64,000 nt of DNA, from assembly GCF_013408985.1 (NCBI RefSeq), contig NZ_JACBZT010000001.1, forward strand, positions 3,596,001-3,660,000. The letters are read 5' to 3'. The notes beneath the pieces were generated by a model. It was not told the origin of the DNA. It was given only the letters and a program-made list of their open reading frames with translations, and searched no databases. Source of the stretch: Petropleomorpha daqingensis. GTDB lineage: Bacteria > Actinomycetota > Actinomycetes > Mycobacteriales > Geodermatophilaceae. Shown here in pieces: positions 9,543-25,447 of this stretch (positions are counted from its first letter, which is position 1; every line of letters starts with the position of its first letter). The position numbers and the translations under genes were made by a program.

Positions 9543-9559
9543 TACGTCGATTGTCGCGG
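9543..9559 (+). promoter_or_regulatory. TACGTC-N4-GTC element, site A (SDR / purU)
   Basis: TACGTCGATTGTCGCGG lies between the divergent SDR and purU genes. It is one of five intergenic copies found in the window (9543, 15819, 18613, 24046, 25431). Here it does not show the fixed 69-bp distance to a -10 box seen at three of the other copies. Confidence 0.6.
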
Positions 9560-9625
9560 GCCGCCTGCCCGAGCTGCGGGCGGTGAGGGGCCGCCCGCGC
9601 GCTTGGAGGCGTCCCACGCTCTGCA

Positions 9626-9631
9626 TACCGT
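9626..9631 (+). promoter_or_regulatory. Candidate -10 box of purU
   Basis: TACCGT in the context CTGCATACCGTG lies about 57 nt before the purU start. The same 12-bp context, with one change, occurs before the MFS gene at 24169 (CTGCTTACCGTG at 24153), which supports a shared promoter type. Confidence 0.4.
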
Positions 9632-9687
9632 GCTCGGCAGAGGTGTAATCCGCGCCATAGGCGTGGCCCGACGATCCTGGAGGTCTC

Positions 9688-10560
9688 ATGACCCGACCCG
9701 CCGACGAGCACCACGGCGTCCTGGTGCTGTCCTGCAAGGACGTCCCGGGCATCGTGCACGCGGTGTCGGGCCTGCTCGTGGACGAGCAGTGCACCATCGT
9801 GGAGAGCCACCAGTTCGACAGCCGGACGAGCGGCATGTTCTACATGCGCGTCGAGTTCGCCCACGCCGACGGCTCCCCGCTGGACCTGCAGCGTCTGTGC
9901 ACCGCCTTCGAGCCGATCGCCCAGCGGTTCGGCATGAACTGGCGGATCGCCGACCGCGACGAGCGCCAGCGCGTGCTGATCATGGTCAGCCAGTACCCGC
10001 ACTGCCTCAACGACCTGCTGTTCCGCAACTCCATCGGCGAGCTCAACCTCGACGTGGTCGCGATCGTGTCCAACCACCCGACGCTCTCGGACATCGCCGA
10101 CTTCTACGGCATCCCGTTCCACCACATCCCGGTCACCAAGGACACCAAACCGGAGGCCGAGGCGGCCCTGATGGAGCTGGTCCGCGAGAAGGACGTCGAG
10201 CTGGTGGTCCTGGCCCGGTACATGCAGATCCTCTCCGACGACCTCTGCCGGCAGCTGGAGGGACGGGCGATCAACATCCACCACTCGATGCTGCCGAGCT
10301 TCAAGGGCGCGCGGCCGTACCACCAGGCGCACGCCCGCGGCGTGAAGTTCATCGGCGCGACGGCGCACTACGTCACCGCCGATCTCGACGAGGGCCCGAT
10401 CATCGAGCAGGAGATGCTCCGGGTGAACCACTCGCTCTCGCCCGAGCAGCTGGCCGCCCGCGGCCGCGAGGCCGAGACCCGCGCTCTCGCGCACGCCGTG
10501 CGCTGGCACACCGAGAACCGCGTGGTCATCCTCGGCAACCGCACCGTCGTCTTCGAGTAG
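9688..10560 (+). CDS. purU: Formyltetrahydrofolate deformylase
   Basis: PurU hydrolyses 10-formyl-THF to formate and free THF. The 290-residue protein has an N-terminal ACT domain (about residues 9-85, starting VLVLSCKDVPGIVHAVSG) and a C-terminal formyltransferase-fold catalytic domain. The latter shows the family motif A-I-N-I-H-H-S-M-L-P-S-F-K-G-A and the D-L-D-E-G-P-I-I-E-Q block with the catalytic Asp. A GGAGG site precedes the ATG. It stops 1 bp before the convergent folP stop. Next to metF, folD and fchA it makes sense as the last step of a methyl-THF oxidation module that regenerates THF for the O-demethylases, as in known chloromethane-utilisation clusters; this pathway role is inferred. 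Confidence 0.95.
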   Translation: MTRPADEHHGVLVLSCKDVPGIVHAVSGLLVDEQCTIVESHQFDSRTSGMFYMRVEFAHADGSPLDLQRLCTAFEPIAQRFGMNWRIADRDERQRVLIMVSQYPHCLNDLLFRNSIGELNLDVVAIVSNHPTLSDIADFYGIPFHHIPVTKDTKPEAEAALMELVREKDVELVVLARYMQILSDDLCRQLEGRAINIHHSMLPSFKGARPYHQAHARGVKFIGATAHYVTADLDEGPIIEQEMLRVNHSLSPEQLAARGREAETRALAHAVRWHTENRVVILGNRTVVFE

Positions 10561-10561
10561 G

Positions 10562-11365
10562 TCAGCCGACCGCGGCGACCACCCGCACCGCGTCGACGGT
10601 GCCGGCCACCTCGTGCACGCGGACGCCCCAGGCGCCCGCGCGGGCGGCCAGCACCGTCGTCGCGAGGGTCGCGGCGTCGCGCTCCCGGGCCGGGGGCGCC
10701 TCGCCGTCCGGTCCGGCGAGCACCGCGCCGAGGAAGCGCTTGCGGGAGGCGCCGACCAGCACCGGGAAGCCGAGCTCGACGAGCTGGTCGAGCCGGCGCA
10801 GCAGGGCCAGGTCGTGCGGCGGCAGCTTGGCGAACCCGAGCCCGGGGTCGAGCAGGATCTGGCGTTCGGCGACGCCCTTCGACACGGCGTCGTCCACCCG
10901 CTGCAGCAGCTCGCGGCGGACGTCGGCGACGACGTCGTCGTAGGTCGCCGGCGCGTACATGTCCGCGCTGTGCCCGCGCCAGTGCATGAGCACCCAGGGC
11001 ACCCCGGTCGCGGCCACGACCGCGGCCATGTCCGGGTCGGCCAAGCCGCCGCTGACGTCGTTGACCAGGACGGCGCCGGCCTCGACGGCGGCTGCGGCGA
11101 CCCGGGCGCGGGTGGTGTCGACGCTGACCGCGACCCCCCGGCGGGTCAGCTCGGCGACCACAGGGACCACGCGGGCCAGCTCCTCGTCGACGTCCACGCG
11201 GCCGGCACCGGGCCGGGTCGACTCCCCGCCGACGTCGACGTAGTCGGCGCCGCTGCAGGCCATCTGCACGCCGTGCGCGACCGCGGCCTCGGGGGAGCCG
11301 TAGCGGCCGCCGTCGGAGAAGGAGTCGGGCGTGACGTTGAGGATGCCCATGACGCGGCAGGTCAT
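10562..11365 (-). CDS. folP: Dihydropteroate synthase
   Basis: FolP condenses p-aminobenzoate with dihydropterin pyrophosphate in folate synthesis. The 267-residue TIM-barrel protein shows the canonical blocks: M-G-I-L-N-V-T-P-D-S-F-S-D-G-G near the start, Y-V-D-V-G-G-E-S-T-R-P-G-A, L-V-N-D-V-S-G-G, and G-A-S-R-K-R-F-L-G. The start overlaps the fchA stop by 4 bp, making it the last gene of the metF-folD-pabBC-fchA-folP operon. An internal ATG five codons in is an alternative start. Actinobacteria normally carry folP in the ftsH-folE-folK cluster, so this is likely a second copy linked to the extra THF demand of O-demethylation; that is an inference. Confidence 0.94.
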   Translation of the reverse strand: MTCRVMGILNVTPDSFSDGGRYGSPEAAVAHGVQMACSGADYVDVGGESTRPGAGRVDVDEELARVVPVVAELTRRGVAVSVDTTRARVAAAAVEAGAVLVNDVSGGLADPDMAAVVAATGVPWVLMHWRGHSADMYAPATYDDVVADVRRELLQRVDDAVSKGVAERQILLDPGLGFAKLPPHDLALLRRLDQLVELGFPVLVGASRKRFLGAVLAGPDGEAPPARERDAATLATTVLAARAGAWGVRVHEVAGTVDAVRVVAAVG

Positions 11366-24045: not shown

Positions 24046-24062
24046 TACGTCAGATGTCGCAC
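24046..24062 (+). promoter_or_regulatory. TACGTC-N4-GTC element, site C (ligM / MFS)
   Basis: TACGTCAGATGTCGCAC lies between the divergent ligM and MFS genes, 69 bp from the ligM -10 box. GGATGGCGG at 24006-24014 lies 40 bp before it, exactly as in the metF promoter. Confidence 0.65.
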
Positions 24063-24157
24063 CGGCGGAGGGCCGCCGGGTGACCCTCGTCACCCTCGCA
24101 ACGTAACGCCTCGCGCGGTGCGCCGCCGGGTGCCCGCGGGGCGACCGCCGATCTGCT

Positions 24158-24163
24158 TACCGT
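24158..24163 (+). promoter_or_regulatory. Leaderless-type -10 box TACCGT of the MFS gene
   Basis: TACCGT is followed by 5 nt and GTG at 24169. The context CTGCTTACCGTG nearly repeats that of the purU promoter. Confidence 0.5.
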
Positions 24164-24168
24164 GAGCC

Positions 24169-25419
24169 GTGCTCAGGTCGCGTGCGTCGGCAGCGGTGCG
24201 GGGTCCGGCGGCTGCCGCCGTCGGGGCGGGGGAGGCCACCCGGTGGACCGCCGTCGGCAGCCTGATGGCCGCGGGCTTCGTCGCGGCCGCGCAGGTCGGC
24301 AAGGGGGCCTCGGCGCTCACGGAGCTCCAGGCGGATTTCGGCCTGAGCGCGTCGGCCGCCGCCTGGTACCTCTCCGCGATGAGCGCGCTCGGCGCCGTCT
24401 TCGGCACGCTGCTGGGCTGGGCCGGGCAGGCGCTGGGCTTCCGCCGGCAGGTGCTCCTGGGGCTGGCCACGATCGCCGTCGCCAACGTCGCCGGCGCCGC
24501 GCTGCAGACCACCGGCGCGCTGCTGGTCACGCGGGTGGCCGAGGGTCTCGGCTTCGTCCTCGTGGTGCTGGCCGTGCCCGGCCTGCTCCCCGGCCTGACC
24601 GCGCCGCGCCAGCGCCGGCTGGTCATGGGCGCGTGGGGCGCCTACATGCCGGTCGGGTCGGGCCTGGCCGCGCTGCTCGTGCCGCCCGTCGTCGCCGGCC
24701 TGGGCTGGCCCACGGCCTGGGTGCTGGACGCCGTGCTGGCCGTGCTCGCCGCGGTGGCGGTGCTCCGCTGGGTGCCGGGCTCACCGGCGCGCCGGCTGCC
24801 CGACCGGGCGGGGCTGCTCGGGGCGCTGCGCTCACCGGGCGTGCTCTCCCTCGCCGGGGTGTTCGCGCTCTACGCCGGGCAGTACCTGGCGGTCCTCGGG
24901 CTGTTCCCGGCCATGCTGGTGCACGACGGCGGGATCTCCCTGCGCACGGCGGGCGTGCTGAGCGGCCTGGCCTTCCTCGCGAACGCCCCCGGCAACCTGC
25001 TGGGCGCCTACCTCCTGCACCGCGGGGTGGCCCGGTGGCGCCTCGTCGTCACGGGCAGCCTGTGCATGGCCGCCACCGTGTGGGCCGGGCAGGACGACGC
25101 CCTCCCGCTGGGCGTGCGGATCGCCGCGGTGGCGCTGTTCTCCTTCCTCGCCGGGCTGGTCCCCTCGTCGCTGTTCAGCGGGGTGGCCGCCCTGACGGCG
25201 GGCACCCCCGCCGCCGGCGCCTCGGTCGGCGTGCTCACGCAGGGCTCGAGCATCGGGCAGCTGCTCGTCCCGCCGCTGGTCGTGGCGGCCGGTGCGTCAT
25301 CGTCGTCGTGGACGGCGCAGCCGGCGGTGCTCTCCTGCCTGGGGCTGCTCGCCGTCCTCGGTGGGGTGCTCTACCGGCGGTGGGACCCCGCCTCCGGCCA
25401 GGGCGAGCCGCCGCGCTGA
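24169..25419 (+). CDS. MFS transporter (CynX/YeaN-like, 12-TM)
   Basis: The 416-residue membrane protein is a 12-helix major facilitator carrier. Hydrophobic segments start at about residue 25 and cover the protein, with a short basic tail. Its features suit importers or exporters of small anions rather than drug pumps, but the family cannot be fixed by eye. It is divergent from ligM and shares its control region, including the TACGTC element, so a role in uptake or efflux of a methoxylated aromatic acid is reasonable. GTG at 24169 is preceded at 5 nt by TACCGT, which implies a leaderless mRNA; there is no ribosome site. Substrate is inferred from context only. Confidence 0.82.
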   Translation: MLRSRASAAVRGPAAAAVGAGEATRWTAVGSLMAAGFVAAAQVGKGASALTELQADFGLSASAAAWYLSAMSALGAVFGTLLGWAGQALGFRRQVLLGLATIAVANVAGAALQTTGALLVTRVAEGLGFVLVVLAVPGLLPGLTAPRQRRLVMGAWGAYMPVGSGLAALLVPPVVAGLGWPTAWVLDAVLAVLAAVAVLRWVPGSPARRLPDRAGLLGALRSPGVLSLAGVFALYAGQYLAVLGLFPAMLVHDGGISLRTAGVLSGLAFLANAPGNLLGAYLLHRGVARWRLVVTGSLCMAATVWAGQDDALPLGVRIAAVALFSFLAGLVPSSLFSGVAALTAGTPAAGASVGVLTQGSSIGQLLVPPLVVAAGASSSSWTAQPAVLSCLGLLAVLGGVLYRRWDPASGQGEPPR

Positions 25420-25430
25420 CGAGCGGGGGA

Positions 25431-25447
25431 TACGTCATCTGTCTCGA
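25431..25447 (+). promoter_or_regulatory. TACGTC-N4-GTC element, site D (ABC importer)
   Basis: TACGTCATCTGTCTCGA lies just after the MFS stop and about 320 bp before the importer operon. It is the most degenerate copy in its last four bases and faces the opposite way relative to the downstream gene, so its target is less certain. Confidence 0.45.

Follow-up and report, generated by a model that had tools for sequence, protein, structure and literature searches.

What does a short DNA element do when it recurs between genes of one-carbon metabolism and genes for the breakdown of aromatic acids, and which protein reads it? The locus that raises this question lies in a stretch of 64,000 nucleotides from the soil actinobacterium Petropleomorpha daqingensis, a member of the Geodermatophilaceae (contig NZ_JACBZT010000001.1, positions 3,596,001 to 3,660,000), which we call the window and whose coordinates are used throughout. 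A sequence-only reading of the window had proposed that a 17-bp element built on TACGTC-N4-GTC, hereafter the box, marks a dedicated regulon uniting one-carbon and aromatic metabolism, with an activator-type layout in which the element sits near -89; this proposal fits our comparative data. Comparison across relatives shows the box to be conserved, intergenic and promoter-associated, standing at promoters of O-demethylase genes (ligM/desA), of 4,5-ring-cleavage genes of the protocatechuate (PCA)/gallate type, and of metF and purU. It also shows the box to travel with one kinase/response-regulator pair. We think it highly probable that the box serves as upstream operator in a catabolic regulon under two-component control, comprising demethylation, ring cleavage and one-carbon recycling; from these associations we infer binding, activation and signal.

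The box in the window and across the family

The strict pattern TACGTC-N4-GTC matches the window at exactly five places where 0.35 are expected, and none of 100 shuffles reached five. They start at 9543, 15819, 24046 and 25431 on the plus strand and occupy 18617-18629 on the minus strand, and all five are intergenic by our own gene calls, so the copies named by the sequence-only reading are where it had placed them. Bare TACGTC occurs 36 times in the window, and the spaced GTC is therefore the feature that sets the five boxes apart. The boxes, at their full 17 bp, are as follows.

9543 to 9559, plus strand: purU box (TACGTCGATTGTCGCGG), with a -10-like TACCGT at 9626-9631
15819 to 15835, plus strand: box of the metF operon, whose genes lie on the minus strand, with a -10-like CACGAT at 15745-15750 (minus)
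18613 to 18629, minus strand: box of the operon of esterase, muconolactone-isomerase-like gene, ligA and ligB, which lies on the plus strand, with a -10-like TAGGGT at 18698-18703
24046 to 24062, plus strand: ligM box, with ligM on the minus strand and a major facilitator superfamily (MFS) gene divergent, and a -10-like TAGCGT at 23972-23977 (minus)
25431 to 25447, plus strand: fifth box, between the MFS gene and an ABC importer; doubtful, scarcely conserved

The whole genome (5,376,835 bases, one contig) holds nine strict matches, and the four outside the cluster all fall within open reading frames, as do all ten one-mismatch matches to a longer pattern found outside the cluster (one place is common to both sets). 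When nine sites were placed at random, five never came to lie inside 15.9 kb (0 of 2,000,000 trials).

LigM is encoded in 31 of 112 genomes of the family. We examined 29-40 kb around LigM in the 30 other LigM genomes, which together with the window gives 31 regions. Strict boxes were found in 27 of the 30 other regions and in the window, and none of the 75 strict boxes used to build a matrix lies inside a called gene. The three LigM genomes without a strict box (G025, G026 and G055) carry (C/T)GCGTC at the expected promoters, in G055 beside another LigM copy. The spaced motif is thus real, while its leading TA is variable, and we dropped strict TACGTC as the definition of the box; across the family its core reads CGWC-N4-GWCG. 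The four spacer bases are mostly specific to the promoter class, with GATT at purU, AATC at metF, ATCC or ATCT at ligAB, and AGAT, GGAT or ACAT at ligM/desA, though exceptions exist. A 13-base pattern run over 108 family genomes was uninformative, every genome having a match among the matches listed, and a more specific pattern was used.

Which promoters carry the box was counted in the 31 regions for genes with at least 80 bases upstream, accepting strict or relaxed boxes. The box is present at 26 of 26 esterase-ligAB promoters (23 strict), 22 of 23 purU promoters (17 strict), 20 of 21 metF promoters (13 strict) and 27 of 31 ligM promoters (only 7 strict). These four target classes together give 95/101, versus 4/95 for eight other gene groups in the same regions, a tally that leaves out MFS, ferredoxin, desA, kinase, 5FCL, livK and ligK. 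MFS promoters have it in 20/20 (1 strict), ferredoxin promoters in 11/15 (none strict), desA promoters in 12/22 (9 strict) and kinase promoters in 16/28 (11 strict), the last sharing the box with metF where metF is divergent. Elsewhere the counts are livK 1/1, 5FCL 2/9, livG 3/28 and GntR 1/31, with none at aldehyde dehydrogenase (0/10), C23O (0/8), folD (0/7), folP (0/4), pabBC (0/4), fchA (0/3) or ligK (0/1). Together with the own-genome scan, these counts indicate that the element is not equally frequent at unrelated genes. The regulon they outline therefore looks narrow (demethylation, the first ring cleavage, recycling of one-carbon units), and the operon for lower ring cleavage is more probably governed by a GntR regulator of its own. 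The sequence-only reading had confined the sites to one-carbon and aromatic genes, and had counted the importer among the targets. The purU, metF, ligAB and ligM sites are conserved; we rejected the importer as a target of the site at 25431, which is weakly conserved (livG as above).

Two side observations concern the box in individual genomes. G055 has seven LigM-like matches, some beside IclR-like genes (41-43% identity to the IclR-like group), with just a relaxed box seen near one of them. In G107 a high-scoring box (L225:10022) precedes a gene for a tannase/feruloyl esterase (PF07519) well away from the LigM cluster, and this points to the degradation of gallate esters as another possible target.

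Promoter architecture and a likely mode of action

The boxes mostly stand at a near-constant distance from two further promoter features. Counted from the first box base toward the gene, the first base of a GNCAT-type block, which we call block2, falls at +47 to +50 and that of a TANNNT box at +82 to +86. Our spacing census covered 119 intergenic boxes with 147 gene-facing and 90 other sides, divergent genes making both sides gene-facing. Among the gene-facing sides, 90 have block2, 87 have TANNNT and 76 have both; among the other sides each of these counts is 1. Shifting the counting windows by 12-24 bases drops the counts to 0-7. In the window the block2 copies are as follows.

15770 to 15793, minus strand: block2 of the metF promoter, in the GCCATC form
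18655 to 18678, plus strand: block2 of the ligAB promoter (GTGACATCGCGCCGATCC)
23997 to 24020, minus strand: block2 of the ligM promoter (CCCGCCATCCGGCTGTGTC)

The block that the sequence-only reading had described as GGATGGCGG, or GATG at ligAB, is therefore real and is one form of a block present at most of these promoters. Its fixed 69-bp distance likewise holds: in the own genome exactly 69 bases separate the first box T from the start of the -10 box at metF (CACGAT), ligM (TAGCGT) and ligAB (TAGGGT), and across relatives the distance varies by 1-3 bp. Identical orientation applies to metF, ligM and ligAB, while the purU box is reversed, its centre lying 75 bases from the -10 box versus 77 at the other three. 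Because of this reversed box, and because GTCA-N2-TGAC repeats face ligM/desA in other genera, we read the site as near-symmetric, CGWC-N4-GWCG. The fifth site, at 25431, has by eye no TANNNT at the usual place.

Sequence conservation falls off around the box. Its eight columns that were not fixed by the search pattern average 1.35-2.03 bits, and the most frequent base there has a mean share of 0.81-0.97. The corresponding values are 0.14-0.42 bits and 0.48-0.59 over the 38 bp upstream, and 0.49-1.08 bits and 0.62-0.83 from box to block2. A presumed transcription start about 7 bases after the -10 box sets the box centre near -89 and block2 near -42. If that start is right, block2 would stand where a -35 box would be, and by eye these promoters have no clear -35 consensus.

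At the esterase gene, 6-7 bases separate the presumed -10 box from the ATG (18698-18710), so that the mRNA would be leaderless in the own genome. In most relatives the called start is about 45 bases more distant from the box and is preceded by a Shine-Dalgarno-like stretch.

A mechanism consistent with this layout would begin with a soluble PAS-GAF kinase that, on sensing either a methoxylated aromatic acid or the PCA-type product made from it, phosphorylates a NarL-type regulator. A dimer of the regulator would bind the box near -89, a second dimer would probably occupy block2 near -42 and replace the weak -35 element, and the bound regulator would activate transcription. The demethylase, the ring-cleavage enzymes and the enzymes that unload methyl-tetrahydrofolate would thereby be made in one step.

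The candidate regulator and its rivals

By its gene content the locus is one where vanillate/syringate-type acids undergo tetrahydrofolate-dependent O-demethylation and the product is then opened by 4,5-cleavage. Gene calls were made by script and their starts are approximate; the genes that matter here are these.

9688 to 10560, plus strand: purU, formyltetrahydrofolate deformylase (TIGR00655, above cut-off)
10562 to 15647, minus strand: operon of metF-like gene, folD, pabBC, fchA (FTCD_C) and folP (Pterin_bind), from family searches
15995 to 17560, plus strand: PAS-GAF-HisKA_3 histidine kinase, start uncertain (15755-16007)
17557 to 18219, plus strand: NarL/FixJ-type response regulator, proposed binder of the box from its domain matches and co-occurrence
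18710 to 20901, plus strand: operon of esterase, muconolactone-isomerase-like gene, ligA and ligB, from gene calls and family searches
21044 to 22402, minus strand: DesA/LigM-like O-demethylase, below the syringate-demethylase cut-off
22492 to 23898, minus strand: ligM, vanillate/3-O-methylgallate O-demethylase (NF047885, 876 bits, cut-off 580)

A short-chain dehydrogenase/reductase (SDR) gene and purU diverge around the first box, the metF-like operon and the kinase gene around the second, and the fifth lies between the MFS gene and a branched-chain amino acid-type ABC importer, named from its binding protein and by eye. The metF-like protein scores above the Pfam cut-off and below that of NCBIfam. 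The folate biosynthesis genes pabBC and folP sit inside the metF operon (10562-13780), an arrangement that would let the cofactor pool rise along with LigM.

The best candidate for the binder, we infer, is the kinase/response-regulator pair at 15995-18219, which follows the box best among the regulators compared. The kinase matches PF07730 (HisKA_3) and PF02518, lacks a hydrophobic stretch typical of a membrane span, and is cognate to the response regulator by position; the two genes overlap by 4 bases and are followed by a 2Fe-2S ferredoxin gene. The regulator combines a receiver (PF00072) with a LuxR-type GerE output domain (PF00196), both above cut-off. D13, D14, D64, T92 and K114, which we take to be its phosphorylation residues, are invariant in 11 aligned regulators.

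The sequence-only reading had pointed to this response regulator, and its co-occurrence with the box supports that choice. Kinase and regulator groups are present in 29 of the 31 LigM regions, and in the two regions without the pair (G055 and G092) a regulator is encoded elsewhere in the genome (81% and 64% identity). The regulator has a match in 37 of 108 genomes sampled from the family. Every match of at least 67% identity is in a LigM genome, with G096 (68%) the one exception, and the match in G092, also a LigM genome, has 64%; the G059 regulator likewise reaches 67% in the regulator alignment. Seven LigM-less genomes carry a regulator of 61-68% identity, and in six of them (G053, G054, G059, G089, G096 and G099) the specific box is found between genes of the regulator locus; in G059, G089, G096 and G099 it directly follows the regulator gene and precedes an operon with an esterase gene, and VanA was seen in three of these (G059, G089 and G099). 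By comparison, among the 33 genomes lacking the regulator 4 contain an intergenic match at any position (p = 0.0003 against 6/7), and none of those four matches lies beside purU or metF, as far as the neighbours could be named.

The association extends beyond the family. In a sample of 80 loci from a named genome collection, and among the matches listed, a box with a matrix score of at least 18 occurs in 6 of 8 loci whose regulator has at least 62% identity (one of the six being Modestobacter, from the family itself), and in 3 of 72 loci with weaker regulators, or 2 of 32 at more than 65% G+C. Nonomuraea has one box at metF-purU and one at ligM-ligB-esterase, the Prauserella locus has ligM/desA-, ligA- and metF-type genes (gene calls there are poor), and the Microtetraspora locus is of VanA type, its VanA named by 81% identity. 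These three genera belong to two other orders. Block2 and -10 box are kept at both Nonomuraea boxes, at the two Prauserella boxes examined, out of three, and clearly at one of three Microtetraspora boxes. In a phylum sample of 396 genomes there were two distant relatives of the regulator besides our own, with no box at a matrix score of at least 9 in the stretches examined.

Several observations weigh against the operator assignment or parts of it. Many of the genomes are close relatives and so not independent, the matrix was trained on sites selected for TACGTC, and the relaxed pattern was written after the sites had been seen. No strict box was found in G095 (61% regulator, on a short contig), nor in the loci of Amycolatopsis tucumanensis (L246) and Pseudonocardia acaciae (L249), each with a 62% regulator. 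The recognition helix ISERTARTHVS also occurs in the distant regulators G139 and G300, with no box in the stretch examined, and therefore the helix alone does not predict the box. Block2 is not recognizable at the purU promoter of the own genome, and aldehyde-dehydrogenase promoters of the VanA type have a GGTCGGATGG-like sequence instead of GTCAT. In 16 relatives the box facing ligM/desA is a GTCA-N2-TGAC inverted repeat, a second layout; none of these 16, all from other genera, obeys the fixed spacing that was expected of them, and they supply much of the relaxed ligM and MFS counts.

The inverted repeat is extended to CGTCA-N2-TGACG in 4 of the 16 ligM-MFS regions (for example at 19326 in the G041 region). 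Most such repeats have GTCATCCGACG some 23 bases on, and the second layout possibly consists of tandem boxes.

Among the alternatives, the one that survives best has the same regulator bind the box as a repressor, or as a protein that can both activate and repress, in the manner of StyR at its upstream site (PMC2442086). StyR activates from a site near -40, and under catabolite repression an upstream site at -110/-90 closes the promoter; our positions of about -42 and -89 resemble this layout. In StyR the -40 site has the higher affinity, whereas here the upstream box is the better conserved, and the lack of a clear -35 consensus favors activation. We regard repression or switching as unlikely.

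Less likely again is a regulator encoded outside the cluster, such as a folate or one-carbon sensor, that the catabolic genes share. Such a protein would account for boxes at metF and purU, and the link between pair and box is known from sequence association. Against it, the near matches elsewhere in the own genome are all coding, the box also stands at VanA-ligAB operons, and its occurrence follows that of the response regulator in other orders too.

A GntR- or IclR-type regulator of the cluster, with the two-component pair only a neighbor, is the least probable of the three. The GntR group is found in 25 of the 31 regions, where it adjoins the genes for lower ring cleavage, and a group judged IclR-like by eye is in 13; the window genome also has GntR genes at 48755 and 53898, outside the counted region. 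The GntR proteins, which the sequence-only reading had put forward as possible binders, were rejected on the promoter counts (1/31 for GntR, 0/8 for C23O). The group is not seen in the LigM regions of G055, G081, G083, G084 and G092 (whole genomes were not searched), the last four keep a strict box nonetheless, and in most VanA-type and Nonomuraea/Microtetraspora loci the pair is the regulator beside the boxes, with IclR-like matches of 32-38% in some.

Other features of the window lie further from the boxes. An IS481-family transposase gene occupies 32305-33258. The lower ring-cleavage genes are contiguous in most relatives; in the own genome the GntR gene at 48755, an RraA-like aldolase gene and a PrpF-like gene lie about 15 kb beyond the transposase. 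A second NarL-type regulator gene (46034-46702) follows a possible kinase gene, the two spanning 44877-46702, about 21 kb from the last box.

Known systems and two demethylation chemistries

With activation by the two-component pair as the preferred reading, the system reads as a new member of the class of two-component catabolic regulators, outside the StyR, DosR and DesR/LigR regulons. StyS/StyR of Pseudomonas is likewise a two-component pair with a DNA-binding regulator and catabolic promoters that combine a site near -40 with an upstream site (PMC2442086), an arrangement that block2 and the box might match if the presumed start is right. The TodS/TodT type also provides two-component regulation of aromatic catabolism in Pseudomonas. 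The regulon proposed here differs from both in adding one-carbon genes and LigAB ring cleavage. In Rhodococcus jostii RHA1, BphS1T1 and BphS2T2 are actinobacterial two-component systems that induce several aromatic clusters (PMC10282184); they serve biphenyl/ethylbenzene pathways. The DosR/DevR box TTSGGGACTWWAGTCCCSAA belongs to a NarL-family regulator and shares inverted half-sites, an inner C and G and a 4-bp spacer (PMC2275270), but its half-site is GGGAC versus CGWC here, and its regulon is unrelated. Our box does not match the DosR operator GGGAC-N4-GTCCC, and the geometry alone is common.

Sphingobium SYK-6 places ligM-metF-ligH and the PCA 4,5-cleavage genes under DesR and LigR (PMC6888825). 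A MarR-type repressor, DesR, and a separate LigR there divide what one pair appears to control here, and the DesR-type inverted repeat GTTTGTGT (IR-B/IR-M) differs from the box. The part of the window's genes that was scanned contains one MarR-family gene (39329-39745, about 15 kb from ligM), whose only match among the proteins of the 31 regions is itself. In titles and abstract openings of the papers listed, with most subscription journals outside coverage, we found no two-component system for vanillate or PCA catabolism in actinobacteria.

What makes the proposed regulon unusual is its recruitment of genes for one-carbon recycling in genomes that use LigM. In a tree of 48 regulators, the LigM-type and VanA-type rows fall on opposite sides of a branch with 100/99 support; nine rows are in no group, and two of the seven VanA labels (G053 and G096) rest on locus likeness. 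VanA_C was confirmed in all four proteins tested (G054, G059, G089 and G099). A close metF (at least 71% identity) is found only in LigM genomes; the LigM genomes G081, G083 and G084 have 55-57%, and LigM-less genomes at most 51%. In G053 and G054, and seen only there, a box precedes an aldehyde dehydrogenase gene followed on the same strand by a gene for glutathione-independent formaldehyde dehydrogenase (FdhA). The FdhA comparison covers the LigM-less genomes G053, G054, G089 and G096, with TIGR02819 confirmed in the two tested (G053 and G096) and the assignment made by similarity in G054 and G089.

VanA-type oxygenases release formaldehyde, and LigM yields methyl-tetrahydrofolate. Because of this difference in by-product, and with the box at the aldehyde dehydrogenase-FdhA pair, formaldehyde dehydrogenase may replace the one-carbon recycling genes in VanA-type genomes. 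We lean toward a picture of sister clades with one operator and two demethylation chemistries, in which the LigM clade would have recruited the metF operon and purU, and the VanA clade an aldehyde/formaldehyde dehydrogenase operon. The disposal module would thus be exchanged while sensor, regulator and operator stay, an exchange that is plausible and rests on few loci. Demethylation is a bottleneck when lignin aromatics are converted into products, and LigM turnover requires the unloading of methyl-tetrahydrofolate. One operator that couples demethylation, ring cleavage and one-carbon recycling would supply a promoter part ready for use and a sensor that can be tested. If the exchange is true, these clades would be a clean example of regulon content following the chemistry of the released by-product.

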